Positions 14,049 through 44,388 of a stretch of DNA of 64,000 nt are shown here, piece after piece; within the stretch, counting starts at the first letter, position 1; the number at the start of each line of letters is the position of its first letter. Position numbers and translations under genes: made by a program. The DNA lies in the NCBI GenBank assembly GCA_021904315.1, contig CM038917.1:14926041-14990040 (forward strand), given 5' to 3'. Under the pieces are notes generated by a model that did no database searches, was not told where the DNA came from, and was given only the letters and a program-made list of their open reading frames with translations. Origin of the DNA: Sphagnum magellanicum (lineage: Eukaryota > Streptophyta > Sphagnopsida > Sphagnales > Sphagnaceae).

Positions 14049-14780
14049 TTGCACAAAGAAATTCCGTCACCTTCTTCCCACACAACACAATCTCACAGCT
14101 CGTAGAGCTTGGGGCAGACCGGACAGAAACTCTTCCACTCCAAATCCCTCTACCTCAAGCAACGCCTTCAGATGTGATCACGAGGGCTACATAAAAAGAA
14201 AAGCACGAAATCTCGGTCTCACGCCTCTTTCTATGTCCTCAAAGACCACGACACCAACACACAACAAACCTTCTCGATTCTTCAAAAAGAGGCAGCACAA
14301 GAAAGACAAGTTCTCCGCTTCTTCACCTCATGACTTCGAACTTAGCTTGTTGGATCCGCAACTCGTTTCTGGAATTCTTGCACATTCGATTTCCAATCGC
14401 TTCGACAACCGAACCCTCGAATACCGATCACAAACATCAGCAACAACCGAAGAACCCGATCGTGCACAGCAATCCAAAATAATGGAGCTCCCGAAACCCT
14501 AAAACCAGAAGCTAGAAGGCAGTGAGACGGGCATGGAAACGGGTATGTACCAGGTTCTGAGTACAGACTATATACCGACGTTGGGCCAGAGTGAACCAGC
14601 ACCCACCAGTGCACCAAACGTGGATGGATGGTGCACTGATAGGATTCTCTTTTCTATCCCTGTGCCATCCCAGGTTCACTTTTTCTTTGCCCTTTCTCAG
14701 CCCTGATCTCAGTTTTTTTTTGCAACTTTATTTTGTCCCCGCCCCCTACCCAGTTTTTTTTTTTTGGCTTTTGAAACTTT
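14049..14780 (-). promoter_or_regulatory. 5' UTR/promoter region of TRAPPC11
   Basis: This is the region upstream of the TRAPPC11 ATG. Up to about 14510 it is less AT-rich than the flanks and open on the plus strand, but that openness looks like a compositional by-product of the antisense of exon 1 and its leader. No recognised protein is encoded. No clear TATA box stands out. Confidence 0.45.
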
Positions 14781-15010
14781 TCCCACCCACCTACTATTCC
14801 TCACCGACCTACTCACCTATATATTTAGATTAAAAGTATACTCTTCCCCATCTACCTACTCACCTATAAATTTAAAATGTGCTACTCTCATCCCCACCCA
14901 CCTACCCACCCCACCTATTTGTCTACCTACCAACACTTTAGATAGATACCTACCAAACCCCACTTAGATGGCTACACCAACCTACCTAGTTGGCACTCCA
15001 ATAAACCCCC
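14780..15010. repeat. Degenerate ACCTACC-type low-complexity tract
   Basis: A run of short C/T/A-rich words (CCCACCCACCTACT, CTACTCACCTATA, CCACCTACCCACC) with partial repeats such as CTACTCACCTATA-A-ATTTA at about 14810 and 14860. It resembles a decayed minisatellite. No coding signal. Confidence 0.6.
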
Positions 15011-16137
15011 AACGATTAAGAAAGAATAAAATGAAAGTATTGCATGGCACTTGGTCTTGTTCATTGAAGCAAAATTAATAAGGCAAGATTAAAGTAATCG
15101 TCACCCCCTATGTAAAGGGTATTGCAAATAGACATTGATGGTAAACATGATGTTTTTATGTGTTCTAAAGCTATTACAAAATCTTTTGAAAATCTAGAGG
15201 ATGTGAAACCCCCCAATGAGAGTATTGTAGGTTCTATTTGGGGAGTGTTTTCCACAATGGGGGGGTATTGCACAGCCAACACATTTAATGAATGTTGTAC
15301 ACATGAGGGGCTTAGATCAACAATAGGACCTACATAAAAATATTTGATTTGCTTGTTTTAATGGTGTATTTAAGCAATGTGGAGTAGATTTAGCACTTAT
15401 TTATATTAACACTAGGGTTTTAGAATTTTGGGTTATGGAGACAACAAATATTTATGATTTTTTTGCATTTTTTAAATTTAATTAAAATTAGACCTAATAT
15501 GGATTTTGGGGGTGCGGGGGATTTGGCACAATACACTTTATCTCTCAAAGAAAGTCGAGAAAGGTTCAAACGCAAAGACCAAAGCAAAAGGTAAAAGACA
15601 CATTGTGGTTTCTATTCATTTGTTTTTTTCATTTAATTTCTTCAAATTAGGGTTTAATTAGTGATTTTATTTTTATTTTTTTACTTAAGGTATTTTGTTG
15701 CCCATTACATATGGATGGTCATGGAGGTATCAATTGCATGTGGGTATTGCACATCTAGATTGAAAGCCCTACATTTAATCAATCAATTGTCTCGAAAAGG
15801 ATAGGGATTTGTTTTTTTGCGTAAGTCTAAATAGCCATAAGATAGTTGTGTGAATTTTTTTTCCATTTGTAAACTACTGTTTATATATGGGTTGTGGTAA
15901 AGTTCATTTGTAAGGTATAAGGGTTTGTTAATTAGGGTTTAATGGCTTTGTTGATTAGGGTTATTACAATTTGTAAATTTGTGAAGGTATTCCATGAGTT
16001 TTCATAAGTTGGGGACTCCTACTACAAGGTTATTCCTTCAGCACTTCAAAACATGGGCGCAAACTCCATTGTCCCAATCCATCAAGATCCAAAACCTGGC
16101 AAAATCACATTTCTTGAATGTGTACTTAGTGTGGAAA
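15011..16137. other. Unassigned flank left of the Ty3 element
   Basis: AT-rich DNA with short open frames only and no recognised domain. The last bases, GATGG at 16138-16142, are the left target-site duplication of the Ty3 element. Confidence 0.5.
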
Positions 16138-16142
16138 GATGG

Positions 16143-16764
16143 TGGTATAAATGAAATTTAAATTCTTGCAAAATATTTCACACTACTATAACAACATATT
16201 TGCATTTCACATGCATATGTTCACTACTCATGTCTTAAATCTCAACAAACTTAACACTACCATTCATTCCAACATCAAATTCATGGTTATTACATATAAC
16301 CAAAATTTGCACTTCAGAATACATTGTAAAAAACTCCAAAAACAATATTATAATTCACTTCATCATAATCTGATATTACAAAAAATTCACACAAAAGATG
16401 AACATAGAATTCAATATAGAAGTATGTGTTTCTCTATATTACTAAAACCATGAATCCAAATTATAGCATAATCCCATATTTTGTTTTAAAAAAATTTAAA
16501 CAACACTTAAAATTTGTGTTATATCAAAATAGAATTTATGGTTTTATACTATAAATACTTATAGTTCCTCTTGTTCTTCTCAAAATTTTGTGTCTCGTCG
16601 TCTTTTTTTTCTCCAGAACTCTAACCTTTTGAAATATTCCAAGTCACATCATCATGATCAAAACAACAAGAATTCAAAATTCAAACTAACAATGTTACCT
16701 TATCAATCCCTATCCTAAGTACCTAATTCATCCAAAATCACATACTTGTCCTACCCCTTTAACA
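16143..16764 (-). repeat. 3' LTR of the Ty3 element, with polypurine tract beside it
   Basis: This is a 622-base LTR. In element sense it starts TGTTAAAGGGG and ends TACCA. Its inner neighbour, 16765-16779, reads CTACAAAGGGGGTAA on the minus strand, a good polypurine tract. The left half (16143-16423) matches 30115-30400 directly. The right half (16424-16764) matches 37183-37521 in inverted orientation. Confidence 0.88.
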
Positions 16765-16779
16765 TTACCCCCTTTGTAG

Positions 16780-19365
16780 TTTGGATTCTGTCCCTGAAAT
16801 CCTTGTAAAATGATAGAAATGAAATGAAAATATTTTATATCCTTTCAAACATCTATTTCCCCTACTATAGGTCTGTAATCCCAATCTACATAAAAACTAG
16901 TGGTTATATCTACGTTTTGTTTTGCAATTCCAATCTCCACCACCATTAATTCAGTTTGTGGTTTTATTTCCAAATGTTATATCTTGGATATTTCTTTTTC
17001 TAATGCTGGAATAACCTCCACCTTTTCCTGTTCCTAAATTCCCTTTGATTATTTTTCTTCTTGACCCATTCCACTAAGGTCTTGTGGTATCTTTAACATT
17101 ACCTCCTCCTCCTAAATTATTCCATTAAACCCTGCTTCTGTCTCTTCATCCTGGCCCAATACCTCTATACTTGTTGGACTACCACAAATGAACTCTGGAA
17201 ATTTTTTTTAATAAGCTTCCAACTTGTACTTCAAAATTCTTTCATCAGTCTATGTTGAGCCAAATTCTTTTCCAACTCCTTTGTAAAATATGCCTCTGCA
17301 ACCTCCCACCATTCCTTAGATTATGCTTCAAAATCTTACATCTTATTCTTCATCCTCATTAAGATATAATACTACAACATTAGTTCATAATCCTCTAGTC
17401 TTTTTTTAATACCAGCTAGATCCAAACTCTTCCTCTATTCATGTGCCCTCTCCAATTGTGCTTACATGTGTTACGAAATTTTCTAATACTCTTCCTTGTC
17501 CTCCATTAATTGCTCTCTTTCTACCTTTATTATCTTTCTTCGAAGCTCCTCAAATTATAACAAAAATACATCCTTCAGATTTATCAATTCCAAATCTATC
17601 ATAACATTCTCCTTCTCCTTCTTTTCTTTAGTCAGTGCTTTCACCTAACTATGCAAAGCCTCCTTTGTTTCTTATGAAAAAAACAGTGCCTCTATCCACT
17701 TCCTCTCTATGGTTTCCCAGATTTCAGCCTTTTGCCTTAATTTATGTAGTTCTTCATCTTGTGATTTCAACCATGTGCTACCCTTGAGCTTTTGATTCTC
17801 ATCCTATAGTTTTTTAATGAACATTTTATTTTTCTACTCAACCTTTGTCCTATTTTTCCTATAATTTCCACATTATGTTTATACCCCTTCTGGAAATCTC
17901 TCTCCTTACCCAATTCCTCTTGTAACATTGCCTTTTCCTTCTCCCCTATAGCTAATCTATTCTTCAAAGTGTTCACCTCCAAAGTCAAATTCCCTATATT
18001 CAAACTCACAATTGCCATGGTCTGAAATAAATCAACTGCTTAATCTGCTTTCATTACTTCTACAACTACCTCTTCCACAAACTTTGGTGTACTTGTTTGT
18101 GTCATAGGATCTCTAGATCCTTTTATAGATGATCCCAACTCCTATACCATTCTTCTCCCCAATTCAAATTCAAATGGGAATCCCTTTACAGATTTTGGCC
18201 TACTAGGTGGTACCTAGAAATCTATTAGTCTAAACTTTTCGAAAGCAAGTTGTGTTGCCACTCTTTCCGGCTACAGTTCAGTAGCATGTAAACTTTCCTT
18301 TGTCCATTGTTGTTGTTGCTGCAAATGATGTTATAAATGTTGAAAATGTTTTGGACTTACAATGGTCTCCATCCAATCTTCACATACATCCCCTTCAAAG
18401 TGCAAATGCTCCTCACCCTCCGAAAACCTTATTTCATGTTCGTTCTTAACTCCCTAGCTCTACTCCATTGATTGTTTCTCCTATGGCAATGTCATCTATG
18501 GTATCTCCTGCCTTTGCTCCCTAAGTTGTCTCTCCTATGGAGATGTCTTCTGTGGTACTATTGTAGTTTGTTTAATTACCTATACCACTATTAACATTAC
18601 CCATACCACTGTTGGCACTTCAAATGGTTCCACTCTACCCCTCATCATTTTTCATGCCTTCAAATATGTGCTCTCCTATTCCCTCTTCACTCCTGAGCCT
18701 AAGGCTCCTCCTTCCTCAACCTTCTTCTTCTTCTTGAGAGAACTTCTTGAAAAGTCTACTACAACTTTCCTTCTATTTTCTAGCATTATCTGCATCTCTT
18801 CACTAGTTTTTTTAACCTTGGCTAGCGGTTTTTATGGATTGTCCCTTTGATGCACAAATAGATACTGAAAGATTTTTGCCAATACCAAGGCAAATTAATA
18901 GGTATCTTTCATATCCCCCTTATTATCCTTAACATAATTATACCACCTATCTAGTTGACTACACAAACTATTGAATATAATCGTGCCCAATTTACCTTCT
19001 TTGCTCTCACCAATGTAATAGATTTTTGTTGCTAAAATATTGTACCTTCTCCCTCTGATAAATGATAGATATAATGGTAGGATATTGGACAAATATGGCA
19101 AACCCAAACTCTTTGCATTCCATTGATTTGCAGAAGAATTTGCAGATGCAATTCTACAACTCTATAATGCCTAAATTGCTAGTGACTTACTAACTTGTCC
19201 TTTCAATTCTTCTACATACCCTTCCACACACACTCCAAAAACATCTATAATCAGTTGTTTGCTAAATACGTACACCTTATCCTTATGCCCAAAGTAGATA
19301 TTTGCGCCCTTAATCAAGAATGTGTTCAAAAATTCCAACATTACACGGGCATTAGTGCTTCCCAC
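16780..19365 (-). pseudogene. Extra open-frame region 3' of integrase in the Ty3 element
   Basis: Between integrase and the 3' LTR lies about 4 kb that still contains minus-strand fragments: 19365-19171 (includes DKVYVFSKQLIIDVFGV), 19107-18895 (includes NSLCSQLDRWYNYVKDNKGD) and a charged, Leu-spaced coiled-coil-like stretch at 18018-17767. Some plant Ty3 lineages (Athila, Tat/Ogre) carry an additional ORF here, so this is plausibly its remnant. I do not recognise a defined domain. Stops and frameshifts are frequent. Confidence 0.55.
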
Positions 19366-21358
19366 CCCATTAGAAACAAAGGAACAAGCCCTATTTTAGA
19401 AGCCTAGTCTTCTTACTCAACAATATCTTCCCAATTCTCCATATGCTCTACATCTTTGTCATAATTTTGTTTCGTTTATGTCCACATGAATCGTTCAAGG
19501 TCTAAAATATTAATATTTTTCTCCAAAAGTGTAGCTTTGTCCAGGATTACGCGTCTTTTATTCGATTTTGCTTCACACTACTCCATCTCCATCGCCCTTC
19601 GTTGTGCTTCTACCATTATCTACACCTTTGTGGCTTGCTATACTTTCAATTACACTTTTGTGGATAATTATTCTTCTTTTGCAACAACGTTCTCCTCCCT
19701 TGTGTCCTTTTGCATTGTTTATGCATCCACAAAATGTTGCTCCTCATCTTCATCTTCCTCCAATTCTTCAATGCACACCGAATCTATTAATGTAGCTCCT
19801 AGTCACATTTGCTCTCTTACACACTAACATTGTTTACTTTTGCACAAAAATTCAATTGCAAATGTTCTAATTATATCATGTCTTGAATTATTGTTTGTGC
19901 AAACTATATTTTCTTCATTATATGCCTTCCTTTCTACACATTCCAAAGATGATGAATGTGACAACAACCTTACAACCAATGACTGAATATTCAACACTCG
20001 TCTCACTGCTCTTTTCAACTCCTCTTCTACTTTTGTTCTTCTCAACAATTTCGCTTCCTCCTCCTACCTTCGTTTGTGCTCACTCATATGTGCTTCTTTT
20101 TCCCTTGTTATTCATTATAGTTTTTCAATTGCACTCTCTGCATTCATATTGTTATGAACTCCAAAACTTTGAAAACACAAATAACTACTAGCAACAAAAG
20201 CAAATTGCTTTCGACAATTACCCCATTTTTTCTCGTCCTTAAACATCCCGCCCGCCACATTCATTTTTTCATCAGTGCACTATTTTTTAATTAACACACG
20301 ATCCTCAAAATTAATATGGCCCATCACTATAAGTTTATGTGTCCCTTGTACAACCACGTGGAAGCACTTAGTATCATCATTATGAATGAACATCACAAAT
20401 TTAATGTTCCAATTATTCCACATCCATAACCTTCTTACATTATTTGTATTGACTCCACTTCATTCGCCCTATACACCTTCTATTGATTATGCCCATTTAT
20501 CTATTGATTATGAAAACACATTTGGTGATTATACTAATTTTTCTACTAATTGTGCCCACAATTCTGATGATTATGCAAATAATCCTAATGATCGAATGAA
20601 TATTGTTGTTAATTCAGCCAATATGCCTAACATTTCACCTTTAGATCTTTGCATCCCAAATCCCGCACTTCTATAATTATTGTTCATCTACATATTGAAA
20701 ATAAAAGTTGTGTTCACCATTGGATCTATGATCTGTTCTTTGTCTTCAACATTCTTCATCTATGGTTTCTGTATTTCACATCCTTCATCATCCTCCTCTA
20801 TGTCAGAATTTGTTTCTTGAACTCCACCTACACTCTATTCCCAATATACTAAATTTGTTTTTCTTTTTTCTGAACTTTAGATTCCATGTATTTATAAGGT
20901 TTGAAATTATTCACATTGACCAACACAGGGTTGCTTTCAAACTTCTCAATGGTCACCAATAACACAATGTTATTTGGCAACACATATTGTACTCAATACG
21001 CTCCAAACCATTTCCTAATAAACTTCCCTAGGTGTGATTTATTGTCCTTTGGAAACCACAGAACATATTCACCCTAAATTGTTGTTCCGGATTCTTTTGT
21101 TGATTCCTTGCACTTTATAATTCTACTAGTTAAAACTCTCACTAGAGTATCATCTCTCTCATTTCCACCAACAATTGGAATAATGTACTCTATGGGCATT
21201 AATGGATATGGTGTACACAATGTTGCTACTTTATATGCAGTTATGTATGAAAATAACATTGTAAAGATATGCTCATACTAATCTATTTTATTTTCACTAA
21301 CTAACTTGGTTAATAGTGTCCCAAGTACCTTGTTCATAGATTTAGCTTGCCCATTCCC

Positions 21359-21800
21359 TTAAGGATAATAAGTTGTAGAATTCACATGTTTCATCAAAAA
21401 ATGATCTATCAAATACTTGATGGCATCATTAATGAAATGAACTCCCTGATCTATGACTATAGTCAAAGGACATCCAAACCTAGTTAATATGCATTCATAC
21501 ATAAATTTTGTTGTGATTAATGTTATATTAGTTATCAATGCTCTTGTTCCCACCCACTTAGTAACATAATTTGTGGCAACAAAAATATATTTGTTCCCTT
21601 TATATCTTCTTGCTAACTTAATTGGCCCCACAAAATCAAGTCCCCATTTCATAAATGGTTCCTTTGGAAGACTTGTGACTAGTTTTGCAAGGCTTTGAAT
21701 TGTTAATCCTCATGTTCTTTGACATGCATCACAAGATCTATAGTAATCATGCACATCCCTATACATAGTTGGCCACTAATATGCAACATCCAATATATTC
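21359..21800 (-). pseudogene. Integrase remnant of the Ty3 element
   Basis: The zinc-binding end is visible near 21720-21760 as YYRSCDACQRT, followed by the catalytic core start [10 protein letters not shown] at about 21652 and the second-Asp region [15 protein letters not shown] near 21450. In intact Ty3 integrases the core is WGxDFxGP...D...SDxGxxF; here the first Asp (GLDF) and second Asp (VIDQG) remain. The frame ends at 21359. Confidence 0.85.
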
Positions 21801-22109
21801 CTTTGTTTATGTTAGTTGCAAAATGCCTTCCTAAAGGTCTTTCATGTAGTTTTTTCATCACCATTTGTGTTTATGTTGTCAAACATCATTGTAGTCTATT
21901 TATTTGGCCCATTCTGTACAATTCACAATTCTTCAATGTGAAGGGCTTTACTTTTCTAACCAATCTTTGTTTTATTGCACCGATAACATGTCCTCAAGTT
22001 GTCATGTTTTCAAAAATTCTTTTAAATTATTCGATCATTCAAGCCTTGTATAAAACAAATTTGCATCTATGGTTTGATCATGCACACCTATGGGCTCTAA
22101 TATTCAGTA

Positions 22110-23048
22110 ATCTTGACAATGCATCTGCAACTACATGAATTTTACCTAGCTTATACATCATTATGAAATCATATTTGAGGAACAATAACAACCATCTAGT
22201 TATTCTCCCTAAAACCTATGGTTTGTTGACCAAATAGACTAATGCCATATGATCTACATAAAAGACAAATTTATTGCCCAACAAATAATGTTTGAACTTG
22301 TGCAAAGAAAAAACCATTGCTAAAACCTCTTTTTCTATTATGCTATAATTTTGCTTTGCTTTGTGTAGAAGCCTAAAATAATATTGGTTGATCACTCTTC
22401 CTTGTTACATTCTAAGACAACATAGCCCCCATAACTAACAAGGACACATGTGTATGATCATGAAATTCCACCTACCAGTTTGGTGATATCAACATTGGTA
22501 CTTCAATATATTTCTGTTTAATCAATTCCTAGGCCTTTTAACATTCCTTTATCCAAAAAACTATTTTTGTCTTTTTGGTTAGTTTAGTGATAAATGCCAT
22601 AATAATAATAAAATTTTCTATAAAACATTTGTAAAATTGTGCCATCCCATTGATTACTTGAATCTGCTAGGGATTCTTAAGTGGTGGCATGTTTACTATT
22701 GCTTGTATTTTCTTTGGATCTGGTAGTGTCCCTTCTTTAGAAACAATAAAACCCAAGATCATCCCTAAAAATACCCTAAATGCACATTTGTCTACATTTA
22801 AACCAATGCCATATTCTTTACGCTTTTGAAAACATAGTCTAAGCTTCTACAAATGACTCTCCATGTCATTATACATTGTAAAGTCATCCAAAAATATCTT
22901 CATAAAACTATCCAAATACTCTCTGAATGTTTTAGTCACGATTTTTTGATATGTTGGAAGTCCATTTTTAACTCCAAACGACATCACCTCCCATATAAAA
23001 GCCCCCTTAATTTGTAACAAATATAGTTTTGTATCTATCATCTGGAGC
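22110..23048 (-). pseudogene. Reverse transcriptase C-terminal half and RNase H, Ty3 element
   Basis: The RT catalytic motif reads FLDDF (as in KIFLDDFTMY) at about 22890, in the open segment 23041-22847, with the palm-side FGVKNGLPTYQKIV before it. RNase H remnants end in KIHVVADALSRL near 22115-22150, the standard C-terminal RNase H signature of Ty3 elements. Several stops lie between. The upstream half of RT is at 25717-25949, on the far side of the nested CACTA element. Confidence 0.87.
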
Positions 23049-23052
23049 TATA

Positions 23053-25712
23053 CACTGGTAGAAATTGGCCAAAATGTAACCATTCTATTTATGACTACAT
23101 GCGACTATTAGTTATTTGCAACTACATTTGGACATTTTTGTAACTTTTTTTGTATTGGTCATATTTGCAGCTATAGTGCAACTACTTTACAACTACTTTG
23201 GTGTTCATTCTTCCATGTGACCAACATTTAGTTTAGTTTTCATCCAAAAAAACAATTTATGTCTCATTAACTGCAAATGTGACCAATTTAGTTGTAACCC
23301 TATGAGTATACAAAGGTGTACTTTGTGAATTCTAAGGAATATACTTGAATGTATTAGAATTTATAAATGTATATTTTGAATTTATATGAACAACCATATT
23401 ATATGTGTATTCAAGTATTATTATTAGCATAGATGGCCTTGATATTATGGTTTCACTAAAAAAGGATATATTTTTAATTATTAAATTTTTATGTCAAATA
23501 TTTGCTAAATATATTATCCCCATATTACAAGTTTATCCAAACCATCTTATTATACTTCTTTAAATGATGAAAAATGACATTTATTATTATTATATATTTA
23601 TATTTATTACATGTGATAAAAAACTAAATTTGAATATTATCTTTGATTAAAATTTTGAAATAATAATATCTTATTACATGATGATGATGATGATGATATC
23701 AAAAAGATAGGAATATATATCTATATATATATAATTTAAAACTTGATATATTATTGTTAAAATCTTTTCAAATGACTAATGTACTTATTAAAAATTAATT
23801 TTTATTTATGAAAAAATGAAAAAATAATTATAATAAATCATAATAGCTCTAACGAGTGACATAATAAGATACTATAATAATAATAAAATAGCTAACCTAG
23901 GCTACCTACAAACATTATTATTATTATTATTATCATTATTATAAGTAATCAATTATGAAAAATTATTAGATTAATATAATAATTACTACAAATATTAATA
24001 TAGGTTTAAGTTTTTATGTTTCAAATATATAATTGATATTTATTAATTATTAATATTCATTGACTATAATCAATTACTAATATATAATTTTTACTTTCAC
24101 TTTTATTATTTTATAATAATTACTGTATTAGTTGGAATGGAAATCTAATAAATTATTATACAAATGTAATTCTTATTTATGAAGGAAAAATATACTTATT
24201 AATATATAAAGTATTTATTGTAATAGTTTATAAATAGATTCAATGAATGAAGTAATAATATGAATAATAAAAATAAAATAGTTAACCTTGGGTACCAATT
24301 AGCTACAATAATAGTTAAATTAATGTTATTTTTATTATTAAGTATTTAAATTTAAATTTATTGTTAACTATATATATGAAAATAATAATGGGAATAATTA
24401 TAATAAAATAATTATCCCATGCTAGGTTTTAATTATATTATTAAATATTTTAAAAATATTGAATATTTATAATTAATAGTTAATAATTATTAAATACTGA
24501 ATATTTCAGTTATTATATTAATTGATTTGGTTACAAAATAATAATTCATTAGTTATTAATAATTACCTAATTATTTCAATATTAACCAATAGTTAATTAA
24601 ATTGGTTGATAGATTATTATAGTTAATATATATTTAAAATTGAATATTATAACTATTTATTTAGATAACAAATTATGTAATATTTAATAATAACTAATAA
24701 TATAATTAATTCAAAATCATAAGATATTGATAATTATTACTACAAATAATTAGTTAGTTGGATAATTTATAAAGTGAATTAGTTAGTTTCCAGTTTAGTT
24801 GTTAATCAATTATTTAGAAATTTATTAATTTATTTTTCTATATTATATTCATTAAATAATTATTAATTTAATTATTTAATTAGCTAGTTAGTTGTCACTT
24901 ACCTATTTAATTATATACTTTTCAAGATAAAAATGAAAGCCAAAACATATGGGATTAAAAAATGACTTACAACTAAAATTTTTATCCCATATGTTTTGGA
25001 TTTCATTTTCATATTGAAAAGTATATAAACAAGGTGTTTTGTCTTACATTTTCATATTTTAAAAGATGGGCATATGGGATGAGTCAATAAAAATGACTTA
25101 AACCAAAATAAAATATAAATATTCATGTATTTACACCTAACTACCTACTTTCTTAACTTACCTACCTATTTTTTTACTACCTAAGTAGGTATTTGGCCTA
25201 GGTAGGTGAACAAGTCTTATTTAGATAGGTGTTTATCCTATATGGGTAGGAAGGTATATAGGTAGGTAGGTACCTAGTTCAACCTACATACCTAAATATT
25301 GATTTCATTTTAATTTGGAAATTTTCAATTAATATGCCACATGGCAAAATTTTATTGCACCATGTGTCACAATCTAAACCATCCAAACATAAAAATTAAA
25401 CATCTTATATTATTTCAAAATAATAAAATATTTTTAATTATTAAAAGTTGGGACACATGGCAGCACATAACTTGTTCCCATTGTTCACCAAAAAAGTCGC
25501 ATTTCAATTGTAAGCGACAATACATATATGACCAATAAAAGAATGAAAACATATTTTGTTGACCTTTTCTTTCATTCAAAATTCATTATCGTTTACAACT
25601 TATGTCGATGTAACTTGTCCAACGTGCCTATTAAGATTTTAATTGCAAATGTCACTTGTAACTAAAAATTAGTCACATGGACCAGTTGCAAAATGGCCAT
25701 TTTCTACTAGTG
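23053..25712. mobile_element. Non-autonomous CACTA-type DNA transposon inside the Ty3 RT
   Basis: The left end starts CACTGGTAGAAATTGGCCA. The right end, reverse-complemented, starts CACTAGTAGAAAATGGCCA; the similarity continues to about 28 bases with about six mismatches. The flanks are TATA at 23049-23052 and 25713-25716. Removing the element plus one copy of the duplicated bases restores the RT codons for QISIAPDD, so the insertion site is exact. CACTA elements normally duplicate 3 bp; TAT or ATA within the shared TATA satisfies that. The interior is 2.66 kb, very AT-rich, with no transposase-like frame, so it must have moved with enzymes from elsewhere. Subterminal GCAACTA/TTACAACT words recur near both ends. 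Confidence 0.85.
24912..25027. repeat. Long hairpin within the CACTA element
   Basis: The arms 24912-24955 and 24984-25027 are 44 bases each with about three mismatches and a 28-base loop. The inner ends read CCAAAACATATGGGAT and ATCCCATATGTTTTGG. Possibly a foldback or MITE nested in the CACTA element. Confidence 0.8.
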
Positions 25713-25716
25713 TATA

Positions 25717-25949
25717 GATATTTGATAATATCCTGAATATCCATCCAAGAAAGAATATGCCTCATACCCTACTATTGTGTTCAATACTTCATCTATGAAA
25801 GGTAATGAATATGGATCTTTTTTTGTGGCTGCATTTAATTTTTTGAAATTTATACAAATTCTTAGCTTGCCATTTTTCTTGGGTATTGTTACTATGGGTG
25901 ACAACCATGTAGCTTCTTGTATAGATTCAATGAATCTAGATGTTAACAT
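25717..25949 (-). pseudogene. Reverse transcriptase N-terminal half, Ty3 element
   Basis: Reads SPIVTIPKKNGKLRICINFK, then PYSLPFIDEVL and SFLDGYSGYYQISI, i.e. the fingers and first catalytic-Asp (FLDGYSGY) blocks of Ty3 RT. It is then cut by the CACTA element. The frame resumes on the other side at 23048 with APDDRYKT. Confidence 0.9.
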
Positions 25950-26657
25950 TTTATCTATATGTTATTTGACTATTGTAGCATAGTTTGGATTTAATCTATA
26001 TATGGTTTGATGTGCCGGTGGTATAATAATGTCCAACTCAATTTTGTGTTACGCTAGTTCTCGTGGAATCCTTTTCAAATCTTTATATATCTATGCAAAA
26101 ACATTTTTGAATTCCTTCAACAATTGCTCCACTTCCAGCACCTTGCCTATTTTCAATTATGCATTAATTTTCACCATTACTGGTTCTACATTAGTTCCCA
26201 GATTGAGCTTCATCAATTGTTGATTTTCAATTAATGTCCATCTAGTTATCTACAATCCTTGTGCTTTGATTTTTGTTGGAGTTTCATCCATTACAACACT
26301 CCCTGGTTGATGTTTGTAGTATGTCTCTCGATACACCTTATCTTCTAGAGCTACTTTTGGCTCATATCTATTGCTATGTATCTTCTTCTCTATGTTATGT
26401 ACTTCATATCCTTGTTTTGGAATACTAGTTTTCACATATGTATCCATGATACCCACATCTATGGTTTTCACAAATTGAATTGTCTTAGGTAAACTAATTG
26501 TTCCTATGGAGAACAATTATGGCTCTGTAAAAAAAATGATATCTTCTTCTTCATTTGTGATGTCATTCTGATAATCGTAGCATAGTAACACTTATGGTCT
26601 TCTTACTTCACTTCCCAAATGTTTGGTAATTATAATTGTTCTGAATGTCCCATTCCC

Positions 26658-26912
26658 TTATATGGTAACAATGTTACTTTCCCAATCATGTGCCACTTTA
26701 GCATCCCTCAACCATGGTTTCCTCAATAACATGGAAGAACTAGAATGTACCACATTATTCTGAAGTACAGTAAAAGTAGTTATGAAAGGAATGCCATGAA
26801 CAAATATCTTCAGGTTTATGATCAACCCCACTAGTTTTGTGGTTGTTTGATCTACCATCCTTAGATTATATGATGCAAGTTTAGGTTTTAGAAACCCCAA
26901 CTTTAATGTCAA
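26658..26912 (-). pseudogene. Retropepsin-like protease remnant, Ty3 element
   Basis: The C-terminal part of an aspartic protease domain is visible, ending in SSSMLLRKPWLRDAKVAHDW, the typical end block (usually LLGRPWLRDAKVSHDW) of Ty3 proteases. The active-site DTG/DSG motif lies upstream; from the minus strand near 26935-26950 only a damaged form (GSGINI-like) can be read. A spacer open frame (26516-26250) separates it from RT. Confidence 0.75.
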
Positions 26913-27414
26913 TTATTATATGATGATATTAATTCCAGAACCTCCATCTAATAACACATCTTCTATTGTATTCTTCTTAATCTATATTTAGATAACTGCC
27001 ATATGATTATCTATTACTACAACAATTGTCCCTACTTCTAATATTGAAGAACCAACTTGTTTATCTATGGTTGTTTTATTTACATTTTGAATTTTTCTCT
27101 AATTTCAGCTTATGCCAAAGATATTTTTTTAGCTTAAGAGTTATTTAAAGCAAATGTCCCAAGTTCAAAATATAACTTATTTCTAGCATCTACTTACCAA
27201 TGTCCAAAAAAATCTCTTTTACTATGATAAGTTTCCCTTGAGAATTCACTACTTTTTAAGATTTTTGTGCGTCCATATGAGTAATATTTGGCATACCTAG
27301 CCAAGTTGTGTTCCATCCTTCCATGGATATGGATGGCCTTTCTATCTAGGTTTGTGTTTTCTAAATATGTTGAATTATCTCCACCATTGACTTCTTCAAC
27401 TATTCTTCTTTCTC

Positions 27415-28104
27415 CTAGTCAACAACACTATTTTCTTTTATTAGCTTTCTATCCTTGAACACTTGTTCTTCAATTACTCTACTTCTTGTGGTAACATTAA
27501 CATCCACCACATTCACAATCGTAATGATTGTTTGTGTCTCAACAATAGGTTGAACCTCTATTATTGTCACAAATTTCCCATGAAACATTTTCCACATCTC
27601 AGCAAACTTTAGACAATCTATCATTTTATGTCCATTCAAACCACAAATGTGACATGCATATGAAGGTGTCTTTTGTTTTTTTTGACTTGGTTGTGCTGCC
27701 TTTGTGGTTGCCATTGTGGTTTACTTTTTTTTCTTTTTGCATGTTTCCACATTGTGATTTGTCATCCGATAATTCGGGCAATGTTTATCAATCTTCCCTA
27801 CAATACTTTGTGTTTTTGCTGGTGTTGCTTGTTTGGTATTCTATGGTATTAACGATGCACTCCTTGTTTCTACAGTAGTCATACCTTCTTCACCCAACAT
27901 CGCCACCTCATTGTGCTATTATCGTGTTGACCACTTCATCCCTACAGTTGCAATTATGAAGTATGATTGCAAACCCACTTTAAACACAATAGTTAGAAAA
28001 TTGTCTATGGTTGGTAATTGTAAAGCATGAGCCAACTTTTGAATCCATTCATAGTAAACCTCCACCCTCTTAGTCATCTCCTGCTTCATGTTCTTTAGCT
28101 CCAT
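27415..28104 (-). pseudogene. Gag remnant with CCHC zinc knuckle, Ty3 element
   Basis: 28104-27919 carries a gag capsid-like segment (VEVYYEWIQKLAHALQLPT). 27714-27415 carries one complete CCHC knuckle, CHICGLNGHKMIDC, with spacing C-x2-C-x4-H-x4-C. The frames are offset. Part of the upstream gag up to about 29 kb is too decayed to follow. Confidence 0.82.
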
Positions 28105-30094
28105 GTATATTTGCTCGTCATTTTAAGTCTTTCGATGACATTTGCAAAATGTTTGTGTAAGTCTTGAAAAAATAAAATCAGGAAATTTTAACAGGTAATT
28201 ATGGCACCAATCCAATGCCATATCTTTTAGCATATAGTTAAATGCATTGATGATATACTTTTCAGAAATCTTTGCATTTATTTTTATTATAGAATTGAAC
28301 ACTCTAACATGGGCGTCTAAATCAACATTTTTTTGAAATCAAGATACTTAAAAATTACTTTGTTTGGCTTAACATAATGGCCATCTCTGTGATCAAGAAT
28401 TGGTGTAGTTACAACATATGGTTCTTAGTATCCTCTTCTTGGATTCGTGGCATCTGCACTTCTATACCCTCCAATAGCCATTGAGCTCATCAATGGTCGA
28501 TCTGCAATCTTGTTCACATGAGTAGTCATTATCAGATTAGTAAACATCATTTAAGGTGTGTGAACAACTCTAGTAGTAGTTGTTGGTAGTGCTGAACTTC
28601 GATTCAAATTCCTCACTTCCGAAATTCCACCTGATTCGTTCCTTAATTTTGTTGTAGATCCAATTAATATTCCCTTTCTGACAACATTTATGTTGGGTGC
28701 AACAACTATTTCCACTCTTGTGGTTGTTACACTTACATTAAGTGATCAAGTAACTCCTATTCCAACATGTTGTTTTTAGGTTTCAACAACTGTCACTTCT
28801 GACACTATTGGTGGAGTTGTATTGACGTGAAATCGATAATGTTCCAATCTATGGTTACTCATTAGTATTTATTGTGGTGCAATATGTGGATGTGAATACC
28901 CCTCTGGTTCTTTACTCCTGGTCTGAATAGATGGACAAATATGTTGACTCTATGGTCCCAATTGGCTTCCCAACTCCATGCTTTTAAATTTATTATGGAC
29001 TACAGGAATTCCTAATTCCTATTCTTGTGGTTGATCCATTAATGCTCCTACCACATTCTGTAACTCCACATGCCTAACAATACTTGTTCTAATGTGAAAA
29101 GGCACAAAAGGACAATCCATGGTTACATGTCCTTCTTCATAGAATGCACAGACTTTTCAAAACAACTTGATCATCTCCAAATCCACATATTCATGATCCC
29201 ATGTTTCGATTGTGTACCTTGTTTGATCCAACTTTGGATTCTTTTGATGTGAATATGATTGTAGTACTTCATTTTAATGCATTCACCTGTGTTTCTGAAT
29301 ATTCATATGATCATGGGTGATTTTCCTCAATCTCCTTAAACACATCAGCATTGGTGTTTTCATCCACCTCCTAGTGTTCCACTGGTTCATACTAATCTGG
29401 AAATGCAAACTAATACATAAACTTGGGTTGTATACCTCTTGTAACATTTCTCCTTTGGCTAGTCACCAACTTTGGACTTGAAATTTCCTAAGGCTGATTA
29501 GGTACTATAAAAGTCCCTATTCCGTCTTGATCCCTATGACTTTGAACCACACATTGCGATTAAGAAGTATGTTGCATCTCTCTTCGTGGAAATTGTCGTC
29601 TAAAACTGTGCCTTTTCGAAAGACCCCCTAATCCATACGTCATGTTGTACCACTTCTTACGGTAAATTTTTTTATGTCGTACCACTTCTTATGCCCCACA
29701 AACCTTTCCTTTATTTTCAAAACTCGTTTGTCCAACATTAGATTATAATATGGGGTTTTTGTAAGCCTTGCATACTTCTTTCCATTTTCAAAATTATATT
29801 CTGTCTAACTTTCAATAACTTGTCGATTTGTTTCCAAGTCCAATTATTGTTATAAACTTTGGGTCACCATTCGATTCATCTTGTTTCACAATTCTTCATC
29901 TTCAAATACTATAGATCGCTTTGTAATCCTTACAACGTCAACTGCATAGACCTCTGATACTTTCTAACATACCCTTTAAAATTTTGAATTGAAAAAAAAT
30001 AACACTATTTGTTAAAACATTTTCATCTACAATATACAACAAAATTTGTAGAAAACCTTTCCATTGCTGAAAAAAAGAACAGGAAAAAAAAATT

Positions 30095-30112
30095 CCCCCA
30101 GCATGGTCGCCA
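30095..30112 (-). other. Primer-binding site of the Ty3 element
   Basis: On the minus strand this reads TGGCGACCATGCTGGGGG, two bases inside the 5' LTR end (TACCA). TGGCGAC...GGGG sites of this kind occur in Tat/Ogre-type elements and prime from a tRNA other than initiator Met. The exact tRNA is not determined here. Confidence 0.7.
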
Positions 30113-30114
30113 AA

Positions 30115-30400
30115 TGGTACCAGTGAAATTTAAATTCTTGCATAATATTTCACATTACTATAACAATAGATTTACATTTCCCATGCATATGTTCACTATT
30201 CATGTCTTCAGTCTTAATGAACTTAACACTACCATTCATTCCAACATCAGATTCATGGTTATTGCATATATAACTACATTTTGCACTTCATAATACATTA
30301 TAAAAAACTCTTGAAACAAGGTTACAATTCGTTTCATCATAATCTGATATTATAAAAAATTCACACAAAAGATGAACATATAATTCACTATAGAAGTATG
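30115..30400 (-). repeat. 5' LTR of the Ty3 element, proximal part
   Basis: Aligns with 16143-16423 across its whole length and stops abruptly at TAGAAGTATG (30391-30400). The next bases do not match the LTR. The missing remainder is found inverted at 37183-37521; together they total 625 bases against 622 for the intact LTR. Confidence 0.88.
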
Positions 30401-31810
30401 AAAACAAATCTACATAGTGGGTTATTGATTTGGAAAAACAACATGAGGGCATTGAATCGACCTCTATTGCATTTGGGAGTGGTGTTGCAACTCGAAGAAG
30501 TGGCAAAACTCTAAAGCACGTCCATTATGTTTTAGAATCCTCTAACATTTTTTAGTCTACATGTTGTCCATGTCTATAAGTGCCTCTGGCATTTGTTGTA
30601 GTTTTGTTGACCATTGGCTATATGGCTTTTCACCATGTTTTCATAGACTAAACTTTATGTAACAAACATATGTATAGAAACATATGTAATTTATGCAATG
30701 TTTTGATTTTTTTCCCTGAATTGTATACCTTTTATTCCTTTTTTGATTTCAAAACATTTAACATTTGTGTTTCATAGACATGAAATACACATGTTTGCCC
30801 TTGATTTGAACTATGAATTAAGTGATTAGGTATTACATTCTTTGAAAGCATGATGCACATATGCAAACCAACTAGTTGTTCTAGCAACAAGTATGTAGAT
30901 AAGTTTGGTATTAGTGAACTTCCTTAAGTAGGTAACCATTACAAAGATTGCCAAAATAATAAATACAACATGAACTAGAGAACATCATTGTAATATGGTG
31001 GTCTGTGTGTTTTAGATTGACAAAGTAGGTTCCACGGTTGTAGGTTCAAAACAATGTTAGGTTATTGGTGGGAGTATATGTTGAGAACCTCAGGAGGCAT
31101 ATATTTTTTGTTGGGGGACAATTAATTGTATAGACAATTACTAGGAAATGCACATTTGTCCCCAATAGATGCATGGTAAGGCTTAAACAATTGATATTTG
31201 CTACTAACAAAACAAATTTCTACCAGTACAAACGTCCAATTAAATGTGAATAAACATGGTTGTTTTGTTTTTTAGATTATGAGAATTAGCACCTTTACTT
31301 TCAAGCGTACCTCTATGCCTTTTCAAACTATTATCACTAAGATTCATTGGGAACAAATGCTAGTCATTCAGATGCTCCAACCCAACCAAACCTTGTGCAA
31401 GCATGTCATGTTGTTTGCCTCTAATAACTTTCAATGAAGAAAGAAAATGTTGTTGCAAGGTTGGAATTTCTGTTGTTGTGTTTAGTACTTCAAGCCACAT
31501 TAGCCCAACCAGGTTGCTGATGTTGCTTGTTTGTTGGAGATCATGATGTTATGTATCATGAAAGGTGGGAAAGCCTTGGATTTGTGGAAGGTTGTGTTCC
31601 TCCTTAGGAAGCAAGTCTTCAAGAGTTGGCAAGTTTATTACTAAGGATTCCCTTTGCACCCCATGGAAAGTACATATTTTTCAAACAATTGCACCATCAA
31701 GAATGGTTGGATAGAACATCTTGTAAATGTTTATAACATGTTGCAAATAATCCTTTGTGCTACAAGTGGCAATTGCATTAGGGCCATTCAGAACCTGGGG
31801 CATGCACGAT

Positions 31811-32555
31811 CTAGACCTTGGGTGGATGATTACAAAACACCAGAGCAATGTTAACCCCATCTAGGTATACCAAAACATTGGTGGATGGAATGTCATGGGC
31901 TTGAAACACAACATTAGCTACAATTCCTTCACATTTTTTGTTCTTAATGTAACCAAAGATCTTGCATTGCACACCATACCAATAATAAGTAAGGACATCA
32001 CCGACTAGGTGGTAAATGGGCCAATCCATTCAACACCTTGTAAGTTTTTTTCATGAAGAACTTTGGTTTTCAATCCTTCACTAAAAGCTTTTCTTAAATA
32101 AATATCATGTGGTTGATGTGGAATAACTATGCAAAGTTGTAAAAATTTGTCATAGTAATATTCTACAGACTCATATTTCTTTTGTTTTGTATATTTTAGA
32201 GTTGCTTTTGCTTGTTCTTCACTATGGATTTCACTAAATCGACTTATGAAAGCACATTGTACTTCACCCCATGTTGCCATTAGATGAGTCATTGCATTTC
32301 TAGCAAACCAATCAACAGTTTTCCATCTAAGAGAATTTGGAAAGTATTATAGTTTATGATCGTTTGTATCTTCTCCATAATCACATAGACTTTAGTTGAT
32401 TGTTGAATATGTATAACGAGATCATCATTGTCATGATATTTTGGTAGTTGAATGCGCAAAAAATTAGTAGGTACGACAACCATGACTGGATTCACATTCA
32501 TCATTGTTGTAACAATTGTTGGTTGTCGAGTTGACAAAGTTTTTATATTAACCAA
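31811..32555 (-). pseudogene. Retrotransposon gag fragment
   Basis: 32555-32289 includes LPKYHDNDDLVIHIQQ, and 32292-32005 includes TWGEVQCAFISRFSEIHSE and KKYESVEYYYDKFLQLC followed by IPHQPHDIYLRKAF. This is a retrotransposon gag core in two frames. The same family occurs on the plus strand at 54.5-55.0 kb (LPKYHDNED, KQKKYESMEDYGDRF). No polymerase domain is attached. Confidence 0.72.
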
Positions 32556-33736
32556 ATCAAGACTTGAGTTGTTCCAAATAGTTCTATTTCAAATGGTTGG
32601 TCACTACTTCCACCGTCGTTTAAAGTTTTTACTAATTTTTTGTTAGCTTGTTGTCTTGGTATGTGAGGCCAACCTTCTTTTGTCACCCAATCAATTGTTC
32701 CAAATGCATTGACAATATTTTATAGTATATTCATCATTCAACGCATCCTAAATTTCCTGCAGTTATGAATTATCACTATATCATAGCCCAAGACTCAACA
32801 TGTAATTGCAACTCCTCATTTAGCTTATCCATAACTTGAATAAAAGTTTCATTCATCATGAAATCCATGTTGCCATTGCCACCTTATCACACTATTTATT
32901 TTAATTGTTATGTTATCTAGAATTAATCTTATGCTTGTAATGTTTGAAGATTATTCTATTTCCATTGGACCCTTCGTTGGCACCCCCTCAACTACTTCAT
33001 GAATCTCAAACATCCTCACTTATATGATTACCCACTAAATACCATAACAAGACCAATGTTTTGCCGAACATTATGAATTTTGGTGTCTATTTTTAACCCT
33101 AACCTTTTAGAAATTTCTCACCCCTAATCATGCAACTGAGGTTTTAAAACTATGATCATCAACTTTTGTTGAAGAAAAGAATTAACTTTACACCTCATTC
33201 ATCTAATATCAAATTTCAAAAAAAAAAAAAACTCCCCATGCAACCATCCGCATTCATCATTCTTTATTTTAACATGAAGTTGTTAAAAACCCCTAATAGC
33301 CTTTCCACACCCCAATATCCTTGATGTAATTCTTAAAAATTGAGACCACTGCACATGGTTATGTCACACTAGGATGGTGTTGATTTTACACTCACCAAAC
33401 GTCATCACCATTATCCCCTTCAAAGGTAGGTGAAATCGCATTGGTGTGTGAAATCCGAATAATTTTGTCAACACTTGCCACCACAAGTGATGCCGTGACC
33501 TTGTTTTTTATGGACCCTTGCCTCTTCGTTTGACTTGGTGCATATATTATTGTGCCACAATTATGGTTAACCTTCACACTAACTAGTCGATGTGGTGTTG
33601 TTTCAAACCTTTGGTTTTAAGAAAAAACCAACGTTTTAGAGCCCGTGATAAAACTCTATGCTAACTTGTGTCTTGATTATAATGTGGCACCTGACAAAGC
33701 CCAACCATCCAAAGCTCTACATGGACATGCACAACA

Positions 33737-34558
33737 TGACGCGCTCCTAAGTCACGGGGTGAAACCCACTTGAGGGTTTCACAAAGTCAAGTTGCGGAAA
33801 GTTGAACTTGGTAGCACGCTCCCGACTTCCAACTCTAGAAAAGGGGTAGAGGGTCGAGTTGGGAGCCCCGGGATTAGACTAGGAAGAGGGACTAGCTTAG
33901 CTCGTGTGAATCTGCATCCAAAAACCAACCAAAAACGGGTTAGTTTAGCATTCGGGACACCCTTGGGTGTTGGGACTTGCCACGGGCACTTGGACACACA
34001 AGACTCACCACGGCCCGGACTCGGGGGAAGCCACCACCTTCCCCCATATAGTATTCTCTATGGCTGGTCGCGGAGGCTACATCCGAATGGCACAAATTCC
34101 CGGGACTCCTGAAATGGAGTCCCGAAATTGTCCCGGCGGGACTCCCGGAACTTTGAACCGCCATAACTCCCGACTGCAGAGTTGAATCGCGACGAGGTCT
34201 GAATCAAAGTTGTATCCCTCGTCGAGATCTTTTCAACGCCATGTCGCACGCTCAAATCGGACGTCGGGAAGAGGTCGATTCCTGACTTTTAGTGGTCGGG
34301 AGTCAAACTGCCAGTTTGACTCCCGGCGCTTCTTTTGCCCATAACTTGGGCTGCAGATGTCCGAATTGCCAATGCGAGGGCATTTTCGATATCTACGTTT
34401 CAAGACCTTTCCAATGACACCAAGAACACCCTAATGAGAGGTGTTTTGCCCCTTGTTGTCGAGCTCTGAACATTCGGGAGTCCCGGAAGACTCCCAACCT
34501 CCAACTTTTCCAAGTGTTGGGCTTCACCCTCACACTTGGCCAAAGTGGGGTTGCGACA
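33737..34558 (-). repeat. Solo LTR, minus orientation, with CAACA target duplication
   Basis: This is an 822-base LTR. In its own sense it starts TGTCGCAACCCC and ends GCGCGTCA. Identical 5-bp flanks CAACA lie at 33732-33736 and 34559-34563. It is GC-richer than its surroundings, with GGGAGTCCCGG-type words. No internal retrotransposon sequence follows, so recombination between two LTRs removed the rest. Confidence 0.87.
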
Positions 34559-35304
34559 CAACACATTTTCAACCCATGATGTGTAATTCAAATATGTGTG
34601 AAATTGAACATGCATCCATGTAATCCATCCATAACAAAAAGGTTTTAAATTATGCCATACTTGGAAGGGGGACCTTTTACTTATCGAGTTGGCGATAATA
34701 AGCTCAAAAGTATCTTGTTTAAGCAACACCATGTTGTAAATTATCAAAACTCTCCACCACCACCTCCCTCCCACATGCTTTGAAATCATTAATGGTTTCA
34801 TATGGGTTGATGGACATGAACATCACCATGTGGAGGCAATCAACTACTACACACCTCACCTTTGAATCCTTGATTTTTTCCATGGAGCGCAAGCACCATG
34901 CTTTCAACACATGCCATTCACAAAAAAAAATTAAAACAAGATCTTGACCCCACATAATCCTACCATGGTACATGTAACACTAGTGTGGTTACCATGGCCC
35001 TTACCATGAACATTAAATATGTTATGGAATCCTCATGTTAACATAGTACCAAAGCATAAGACAATGCAACAAAAAATAAAAAATCAATGTACAACTTATC
35101 GTAATGTTCGGAGTTCTTGTGGGGCATCATCCATAATGAAACATGATGGTTTCTAATCTAGCATATGCGAAAGAAGCTTTGCTCACAAAGCACTTAACCA
35201 TTCCACCAAGTTTTCACATGTTTGTTGATTTGTGATAACCCAAGCAATTAGCACCTTTGTGTGATGAAAATCAAACACCATCAATGTGAATAAGTGATAT
35301 TTCA

Positions 35305-36279
35305 TGTCACAGCCCTAATTTTGGGCTCGTAACCAAGGCAAAAAGGTTACAAGGTTGTGAGTTAAGAAGAAGCCCCGGAAGTCAAAGCAAAAAGGACGCA
35401 AGTGTGTGGGTCAAGAAGAAACCCAGGAATCACATCACATACTCCTGGGATTGTAAGAAAATGTGAAGGAGTATGAAGGAGTGAACCCTCACACTCCCAA
35501 GGCAACTCCCACTTTGGGAGATGGAGTCCCGATGGACTTCCAAAACTTCAGAGAGCAATTTCAAGGGTCAAAATTCAATGACTTGTGACGTTCTTTATAT
35601 CATTGGAAAGCTTTTGGAACTTAGATGTCTAAAATGGGCTTGCATTACTCATTTGGACATCTGAAACACAAAGTTATGGCCAAAAGAAGGGCCGGAAGTC
35701 AAACTGCCAGTTTGACTCCCGACCAAGAAAAGTCAAGAATCGACCTGATTTACTTGGCTGCAGAGGGCGTGCGACATACCGTTGGAAAGCTCTTGACGAG
35801 AGCTACAACTTTGCTTTAGACCGCATCTCAATTTGAAGTCTGCTCACAAAGTTATGGGGCTCCAAAGTCATGCAAATCCTAAGTGGAGCGATTTCGGGAC
35901 TCCCATTCAGGAGTCCCGGGAGAGAAAAACCATTTGAATGTAAGCTCCATGGCCAGCCACAGAGTACACTATAAGGGGGGAAGGTGGTGGCTTCCTCCAA
36001 GTCCGAGCCATGGTGAGTCTAGTGTGTCCGTGTTACCCATGGTTCATTTTAACACCAAAGGTGTTCCAACTATGCACTAACCACTTTGTGTGGGTTGTGT
36101 GCAAGCCTGTGTGAGTGAGTGAAGCTTGTCAACCCTTCCTGGTCCCATCCCGGAGCTCCAACACGCCCCTCTACCCCTCAAAGTGTTGTGAGCTAGGGAG
36201 CGTGCCCCAATTCCTCCCTCTTTCGTTATCTTCTACTTGGACTCACATTTGAGTCTTTCGAGGAGTTGGGAGTGTGTCA
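35305..36279 (+). repeat. Solo LTR, plus orientation, with TTTCA target duplication
   Basis: This is a 975-base LTR starting TGTCACAGCCC and ending GAGTGTGTCA. Identical TTTCA flanks lie at 35300-35304 and 36280-36284. It belongs to the same family as 33737-34558 (shared AGTCAAACTGCCAGTTTGAC block near 34303 and 35698, shared start and end), in the opposite direction. TTGGTGCC just outside looks like a primer-binding site, but it is MULE coding sequence (FGTN on the minus strand). Confidence 0.88.
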
Positions 36280-37182
36280 TTTCACATCATTGGTGCCAAA
36301 CATGGCATCCATAGAAATGATCGAATTAGAGCATGGATTGAAGTTGCATAAGTGTTTGGATCCCTATTGTGAAAGGGGCATGAATCCCATTCACTTCACT
36401 TGCATCCTAGAAATAAAAAAATTCATCAAGATGAACACAACCCCATGACTAAATGGAAAGCGTCAAGTTTATGTGCAAACGCCAAGTGCCCCTCTTGTGC
36501 TTCTGATCCAAGTAGGTAATATCTTGGAATTTTAGGAAATCATCCTGAGTCATCCATTCATTTGCATTCCCCTGTGCCCACCAAATTTCTTTATGCTTGT
36601 CATAAATTTGTTTCATGGTGTACCCTAACCCTAATTGGGTCCATATAAATTCCTTCAACTTATGAAACATGTGTGGAACATATGTTGACATCTATGGACC
36701 CTAGGTCACATGCATTGTGAATAGGATCTCCATTGGCCCGAGTGTGAGTTTGATGGTAAAAAATGATTTCCACCACAACTCGTTATGTGTAAAACCTCTT
36801 TAGTGGGCCAAACAACCGCACTTGATTGACTTCATGTGGTTGGGGTCTTTGCGGGTCTTTCGGCGCATAACCACATTTATACCTACAAAACATAATTTCC
36901 ATTCAATCAAATCAAAAGACACAAAAACGATTAACCTTAAAACTTGCAAAAATGACCAATGGAAAGGGTTTATAGGTTTTGAAATCATACCAAGTATGTC
37001 CAAGGTGATTTTTTATCCTTGGTTTTTTACATCTTGTTGAGGGACAAATTCTTGGAGATGTACCATTCAATCACAGTTTGCATATCCCCTCGTTCAGCCT
37101 ACAAAAATACAAAGATACAAGCATGGAAGATGTATGAGGTTTCAATTGCCACGTAGTTTTGGTTTCCATGCCTAAACCCATC

Positions 37183-37521
37183 TATTAAAGGGGTAGGATG
37201 AATATGTGATTTTGGATGAACAAGGTTGTTAGGATAGGGACTAATTAGGTAACTTTGTTAGTTTGAATTTTGAATTTTTATTGTTTTGATCATGATGACA
37301 TGATTTGGGATAGTTCAAAAGGTTATAGTTCTGGAGAAAAAAATAGATGATGAAACATAGAGTTTACAGAAGACTAGGAGGAGTTGTAGGTATTTGTACT
37401 AGAAAACCACAAACTTTGTTTTGATATAACACAAATTTTAAGTGTTGATTTAGATTTTTTTTAACAAAACATGGGATTATGCTATAATTTGGATTCATGT
37501 TTTAAGTAATACAAAGAAGCA
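37183..37521 (+). repeat. 5' LTR of the Ty3 element, distal part, inverted
   Basis: Reads TATTAAAGGGG at the outer LTR end (consensus TGTTAAAGGGG) and continues as the reverse complement of 16424-16764, including GGGATTATGCTATAATTTGG. It ends at GAAGCA (37521), exactly where 30400 breaks off. 37178-37182, CCATC, is the displaced target duplication. Confidence 0.88.
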
Positions 37522-37599
37522 CACGTTGTGGTGTTGTCATTTCTTTTTAATGTGTTGTTCACATCTATTGCAATTGTCAAATGGGGTTTAACTCTACCA

Positions 37600-40886: not shown

Positions 40887-41168
40887 CTATTGTACCTTTT
40901 CTTTCGGTTTTACTTTGGTTTTCGAGGGCGAAGCTCTCTTCCCAGAGGAAGAGGGTTTTCGTGTAGAAGCAAACTTTCCAAATTTATGACCAACCATTTC
41001 TTCAGTAATCTTTAAACCAACAAAACCTTTTCCGTTATAAATTTGTGCGTAGCAACCAACAAATTGAGGCAAAATACAAGATCTATGTGACCAAATTTTC
41101 CACTTGATCTTTGTATGCTTGAATAAGCAAACATCTACAAAAGGGCCTTTCCATACAGATCGTGTCAT
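40887..41168 (-). CDS. rps19: Mitochondrial-type ribosomal protein S19 in the nuclear genome
   Basis: A 93-residue intact frame. It begins [12 protein letters not shown] and continues with [33 protein letters not shown] and FGKFASTRK, the conserved blocks of bacterial/mitochondrial uS19 (R-S-x-x-K-G-P-F; W-S-R-R-S; N-G-K; [14 protein letters not shown]). uS19 sits in the head of the small ribosomal subunit. The tail is a Ser/Lys-rich extension, [20 protein letters not shown]. Plant S19 genes have moved from mitochondrion to nucleus several times, and an undamaged frame within decayed DNA suggests function or recent transfer. A minus-strand acceptor (TTTTTTTATAG|GTC) at about 41258 could end a 5' UTR intron, but an in-frame TAG stands two codons before the ATG. 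No mitochondrial presequence is visible. WSHRS for WSRRS is unusual. Confidence 0.75.

Positions 41169-44386: not shown

Positions 44387-44388
<2 letters not shown>

Follow-up and report, generated by a model that had tools for sequence, protein, structure and literature searches.

The window analysed here is a stretch of 64,000 nucleotides of Sphagnum magellanicum (contig CM038917.1; C11:14926041-14990040 of the genome searched, which comprises 439 Mb in 31 contigs), and it contains a decayed Ty3-like retrotransposon whose 5' long terminal repeat (LTR) lies in two pieces, one of them displaced and reversed. Very probably, this structure goes back to an inversion of about 7.1 kb that took place after the insertion of the retrotransposon, with one breakpoint in the LTR, the loss of 1.85 kb of a neighbouring repeat, TE-B, at the other, and a tandem duplication of the region as an earlier event. 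The original prediction, made from the letters of the window, had already proposed an inversion that explains the orientation, the breakpoint and a displaced target duplication together. This core is upheld by empty insertion sites in copies of the older host repeat TE-A, by an un-inverted duplicate of the region on the same chromosome (unit 2) and by the collinearity of TE-B copies; however, a simple flip, as proposed, accounts for the reversal but not for the roughly 1.85 kb missing at the far breakpoint.

The 3' LTR at 16143-16764 is whole, as had been claimed, both in a self-BLAST of the window and in a base-level alignment. In the self-BLAST, 16143-16426 matches 30115-30400 with 87.8% identity, and 16425-16762 matches 37523-37185 on the opposite strand with 84.7% identity. 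Base-level alignment of the 3' LTR to both pieces revealed that, laid together, they make up one complete LTR, and that the displaced piece resumes no more than 2 bp from the stop of the piece still in place. The predicted split at 30400 with a reversed remainder is confirmed by this alignment, but the remainder ends at 37523 and not, 2 bp earlier, at 37521. Where 625 bases against 622 had been given before, the excess over the intact 5' LTR of unit 2 amounts to 2 bp (TG).

The sequence GATGG is found at both outer LTR edges, at 16138-16142 and, read in reverse, at 37178-37182. GATGG alone is weak evidence for a pairing; it occurs 69 times on the plus strand of the window, and CCATC 59 times. 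Chance is not a serious rival to the split LTR, because the flanks are also two halves of one older repeat. The similarity of the LTRs (Kimura two-parameter distance, K2P, of 0.159 between the 3' LTR and the 5' LTR of the window) is no proof of pairing either, since the 3' LTR shares 88% identity with an unrelated copy on C8, which is thus as close to it as the supposed partner. The LTR family is old and large, with 657 first-look candidates in the genome, the best 40 of which were scored, and LTR identity was dropped as evidence for the pairing; the other 88% match among these 40, located on C11, is the 5' LTR of unit 2. The equally similar C8 copy could suggest that 37183-37523 derives from some other, unrelated LTR copy and arrived there independently. 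The probability of this is practically negligible: the piece continues the LTR where the other one stops, carries the same GATGG and leads into the second half of TE-A, and the continuous LTR of unit 2 already contradicts a separate copy.

TE-A is present in two halves that were separated by the element, one adjoining the 3' LTR on its left and the other located at and below 37182. The right flank (37182 to 36300, re-inverted) yielded 42 rows, for which the best 40 of 296 candidates were scored; without the window itself and two short fragments, 39 TE-A places remain. The left flank was queried apart (63 rows, 34 used). In 27 of the 39 places, the two flanks (to 16142; reversed from 37182) abut and overlap by exactly 5 bp, which is a single, unduplicated target, and these empty sites identify the flanks in the window as halves of one repeat; they also bear out the earlier statement that the GATGG beyond the displaced LTR end matches the one at 16138-16142. 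Among the other places, one deviates by 1 bp, in another the left alignment ends early, and for ten the rows used include no abutting left row; in one of these ten, C13:12597041, the flanks do abut in its DNA.

The un-inverted order is present 47 kb along the same chromosome. The region forms a head-to-tail tandem duplication consisting of unit 1 at 18662-67246 (48.6 kb) and unit 2 at 67250-121077 (53.8 kb; window numbering, continued past the window). In unit 2, the equivalents of 30102-30400 and 37523-37015 are continuous without a break, and a whole 5' LTR at 77237-77858 is followed by GATGG and then by TE-A. The duplicated unit begins inside the Ty3 element, and the 3' LTR is hence present only once. 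The K2P is 0.131 between the 3' LTR and the 5' LTR of unit 2, 0.052 between the 5' LTRs of both units, and 0.079 and 0.080 for two stretches of the element interior. Over 11 segments, the K2P between the units ranges from 0.013 to 0.080 (0.042-0.080 in seven, 0.013-0.030 in four), for which exchange between the units or differing constraint is the likely reason; owing to this range, no absolute date is offered. By segment, the units are 90-98.5% identical, reaching 98.5% over 2 kb at 46752-48815. A multicopper-oxidase gene is located within the duplicated unit at about 58-59.6 kb.

In a chromosome-scale assembly, a retained second haplotype would look much the same as a tandem duplication, with neighbouring copies of 48.6 and 53.8 kb, and the inversion would then be an allelic polymorphism. 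This reading is unlikely, and it is compatible with a real inversion, as it alters only the nature of unit 2. K2P values of 0.042-0.080, as seen in seven of the 11 segments, are high for alleles. The unit boundary lies inside the Ty3 element, and a few A/T-rich bases are common to both sides of the junction (67246/67250), which is weak evidence against a haplotype.

At the far breakpoint, the un-inverted order is preserved in TE-B copies on other chromosomes. The copy on C17 runs from the equivalent of 32060 to that of 30401, then through 1,852 bp, and then from the equivalent of 37525 onward. The 1,852-bp segment is found at the same place on C2 and also on C16, where another insertion (6.9 kb) interrupts it; its first 1,378 bp are present in the C12 copy, and no row on C11 matches it. 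On C18 and C8, both TE-B flanks are present with mostly other sequence between them. A direct joint of 30401 to 37524 occurs in none of the six closest TE-B copies, a comparison that leaves aside more distant matches of about 64-78% identity. TE-B in the window is thus about 1.85 kb short, precisely between its two ends. That this loss was part of the inversion event is the simplest account, although not the only one. The C12 copy (L027; C12:20201001-20210500) has undergone an inversion of its own at 5436-7414 of L027, which spans about 1.9 kb, and about 1.5 kb are missing next to it.

After re-inversion, both junctions are collinear with unrearranged copies: the LTR joint with the 27 empty TE-A places and unit 2, and the far joint, apart from the loss, with the TE-B copies on C17, C2 and C16. 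The intact LTR of unit 2 reads AGAAGTATGTGCTTC across the equivalent position, and the window reads AGAAGTATG at 30400 and, reversed, TGTGCTTC at 37523. At junction A (30400/30401), two bases (TG) are common to the LTR and TE-B; at junction B there are none, plus one odd base. The extra TG can be shared sequence or the fill-in of a two-base overhang. Because so little sequence is shared at the junctions and no inverted pair among those listed lies at both breakpoints, the double-strand breaks were most likely repaired by non-homologous or microhomology end joining.

Recombination between inverted repeats, or a transposase acting on the ends of a DNA transposon, could also invert a segment, and an inverted pair of solo-LTR-like insertions inside the segment as well as short inverted matches 0.1-0.9 kb from the breakpoints might point in this direction. 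However, such an origin is highly improbable. The arms of the pair are 3.4-4.0 kb and 1.3-1.9 kb away from the breakpoints, on the inner side, and recombination between them would flip only the DNA that they enclose. Of 49 inverted pairs found, 25 were listed, and in none of these do the arms coincide with both breakpoints. One breakpoint is located within the LTR and the other within TE-B, neither at an element end.

The inverted pair at 33814-34427 and 35590-36205 had been interpreted originally as a Mutator-like element (MULE), which would be one element bounded by long terminal inverted repeats, with 9 bp of duplicated target. This interpretation was rejected: the arms are parts of two separate insertions in TE-A, each of the TG...CA type and each with its own 5-bp duplication (CAACA and TTTCA). 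In the TE-A copy L030, both sites are empty with a single target; in L028, the first site is empty, and the second coincides with an alignment break with differing sequence. A stretch of 73% identity in the self-comparison of the window assigns both insertions to the same family, and they look like solo LTRs in opposite orientation.

The following order of events can be proposed: TE-A, insertion of the Ty3 element, tandem duplication and inversion in unit 1, the last step being placed by parsimony. A Ty3-like LTR retrotransposon would have entered TE-A on the minus strand, thereby producing the GATGG duplication, as the empty sites indicate. Then, a 48.6-kb segment comprising most of the element and the sequence to its right would have been duplicated in tandem, the product of which is seen in the assembly. 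Later, and in unit 1 only, the DNA would have been broken within the 5' LTR and within the neighbouring TE-B, and the 7.1-kb fragment between the breaks rejoined in reverse, giving the observed structure; the loss of roughly 1.85 kb of TE-B would have accompanied the far break. Of the order put forward before (MULE, Ty3, inversion), the precedence of Ty3 over the inversion holds; the MULE has to be removed, and the tandem duplication falls between the two remaining steps.

Several observations weigh against this account. Unit 2 is itself rearranged, with 78027-93101 replacing TE-A past the equivalent of 37015 and TE-B up to the equivalent of 38638; it supports the LTR joint directly and the far joint only via the orientation of a left TE-B remnant (91128-93095), which is un-inverted and adjoins the 38638 equivalent. 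The far joint otherwise relies on six TE-B copies that are at most about 86% identical and located on other chromosomes. Of these copies, those on C18 and C8 carry other sequence between their flanks, and the one on C12 is rearranged at this place. Short inverted matches are found near the breakpoints, though not at them (30753-30771 and 37428-37446, 19 nt, 89%; 30002-30045 and 38362-38405, 44 nt, 73%), and the end-joining mechanism is deduced from the junction sequence. It is also conceivable, if decidedly unlikely, that a single complex replication-based event produced the duplication, the inversion together with the loss of 1.85 kb, and the rearrangement of unit 2 at the same spot; TE-B might then be prone to such events, given the independent inversion in its C12 copy. 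The replaced part of unit 2 spans about 15 kb, mostly of other sequence, and contains an internally repeated stretch near 82-83 kb.

Finally, the structure is read from the assembly alone, and a misjoin is formally possible: either the 7.1-kb piece was flipped, or tandem units or haplotypes were wrongly woven together, in a region that is rich in repeats and partly duplicated at up to 98.5% identity (46752-48815). The chance of such an artefact is slim. Misjoins usually occur in long near-identical repeats, but both junctions share no more than 2 bp, and the 154 kb inspected contain no N. Moreover, a mere flip would have left the 1.85 kb of TE-B in place. The inversion thus remains the preferred explanation; the coordinates of its parts are listed in Table 1.

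Table 1. Features of the split Ty3-like element, its host repeats and the inverted segment (window coordinates).
Feature	Position	Strand	Evidence or remark
Left part of TE-A, the repeat hit by the Ty3 insertion	14583..16142	+	genome copies
GATGG target duplication, 3' LTR side	16138..16142	+	direct reading; single in 27/39 TE-A places
Intact 3' LTR of the Ty3-like element	16143..16764	-	self-BLAST, alignment; polypurine-like tract just inside
Element interior, decayed and interrupted	16765..30114	-	integrase piece 21362-21709; reverse transcriptase piece 25710-25961
Unit 1, part inside the window	18662..64000		comparison with the adjoining sequence of the same chromosome; unit 1 continues to 67246
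5' LTR part still in place	30115..30400	-	last 2 bases (TG) equally assignable to TE-B
Inverted segment, about 7.1 kb	30401..37523		left edge may be 30399 given the shared TG
Inverted left part of TE-B, with junction A (30400/30401)	30401..32060	-	copies on C17, C12, C18, C16, C2; C8 from 30623 only
TE-A right part, inverted, with two nested solo-LTR-like insertions	33360..37182	-	copies L028, L029, L030
Solo-LTR-like insertion, TG...CA, flanks CAACA	33737..34558		empty site in L028 and L030
Second solo-LTR-like insertion, TG...CA, flanks TTTCA, opposite orientation	35305..36279		empty site in L030; alignment break in L028
Displaced target duplication	37178..37182	-	GATGG upon re-inversion
Outer 5' LTR part, displaced and reversed	37183..37523	+	self-BLAST, alignment, comparison with unit 2
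Junction B, one base (C)	37524		differs from both the unit 2 LTR and the C17 TE-B
TE-B right part, not inverted	37525..42501	+	genome copies, gaps in the match

The insertion of a Ty3-like LTR element is recognized by the paired LTRs and by the 5-bp duplication that is single in the empty sites. Its interior contains an integrase piece (Pfam rve, E=3.3e-07) and a reverse transcriptase piece (RVT_1, E=3.8e-05). On the minus strand, reverse transcriptase (25961-25710) precedes integrase (21709-21362), which is the order expected of a Ty3 element, although both matches are below Pfam's curated cut-off. Read on the minus strand, the element has a polypurine-like tract beside 16764 and, beside 30115, one resembling a primer-binding site. 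Palindromic stretches at 24429-24709 and 24911-25028 inside the element possibly represent a nested hairpin-type insertion. Rfam and tRNA scans of the window gave no match. The plant-specific Dof zinc-finger family, used to check that the genome is that of a plant, gave 26 matches in it, as against none in 14 control genomes. An attempt to name TE-A and TE-B by family matches yielded no name: in the scanned window pieces, TE-A matched no transposon family, and the pieces within TE-A and TE-B gave no family match except one below the cut-off at 41646-41960. Eight open-frame pieces from TE-A and TE-B copies or their flanks had no transposon match either; the matches among them were one glutathione S-transferase piece, located in a flank, and two below the cut-off.

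The inversion is of an ordinary kind. Such inversions are judged to be common from a rice pan-genome index, which lists 1769 inversions; in 888 of these, both breakpoints show repeat similarity, and in a further 389 one breakpoint does (PMC10030860). The survey also describes an enrichment of Ty3 and Ty1 elements and of MULEs, and 59 of 100 checked inversions had no clear inverted repeat at the breakpoints (PMC10030860). The rice inversions likewise break inside Ty3 and other repeats and were found by comparison of many genomes (PMC10030860), whereas here the ancestral order was obtained from repeat copies and a tandem duplicate in one genome, and the sequence of events follows from the target duplication of an insertion. 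Chromosome breakage followed by non-homologous end joining is one of two routes to inversions given for plants (PMC7093584). The case described here resembles this route in the little sequence shared at the junctions and the loss at one breakpoint, although here the route is read from the scars only (PMC7093584). The maize inversions caused by alternative transposition are also local inversions in a plant chromosome (PMC8225341); in the present case, no DNA-transposon ends were found at the breakpoints. Among the titles and abstracts listed on inversion mechanisms in plants, none dealt with the locus described here.

What sets the present case apart is that its evidence is unusually complete. 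It provides a worked example in which a small inversion could be ordered, and its breakpoints and DNA loss obtained, without a second genome. The means were the target duplication of an insertion, the empty sites found in copies of the host repeat, and a tandem duplicate free of the inversion. The inversion lies in decayed repeats and has no evident effect; since the affected DNA consists of such repeats, no function is implied for the region.

Two further features were observed in the window. A gag fragment of another retrotransposon is located at 32008-32588 (Retrotrans_gag, E=8.5e-07), and a stretch 72% similar to it lies reversed at 54527-54897. Exons of a TRAPPC11-like gene are found on the minus strand at 7997-11033, with a Foie-gras_1 match (E=9.3e-24) and a Gryzun-like/TRAPPC13 piece below the cut-off.

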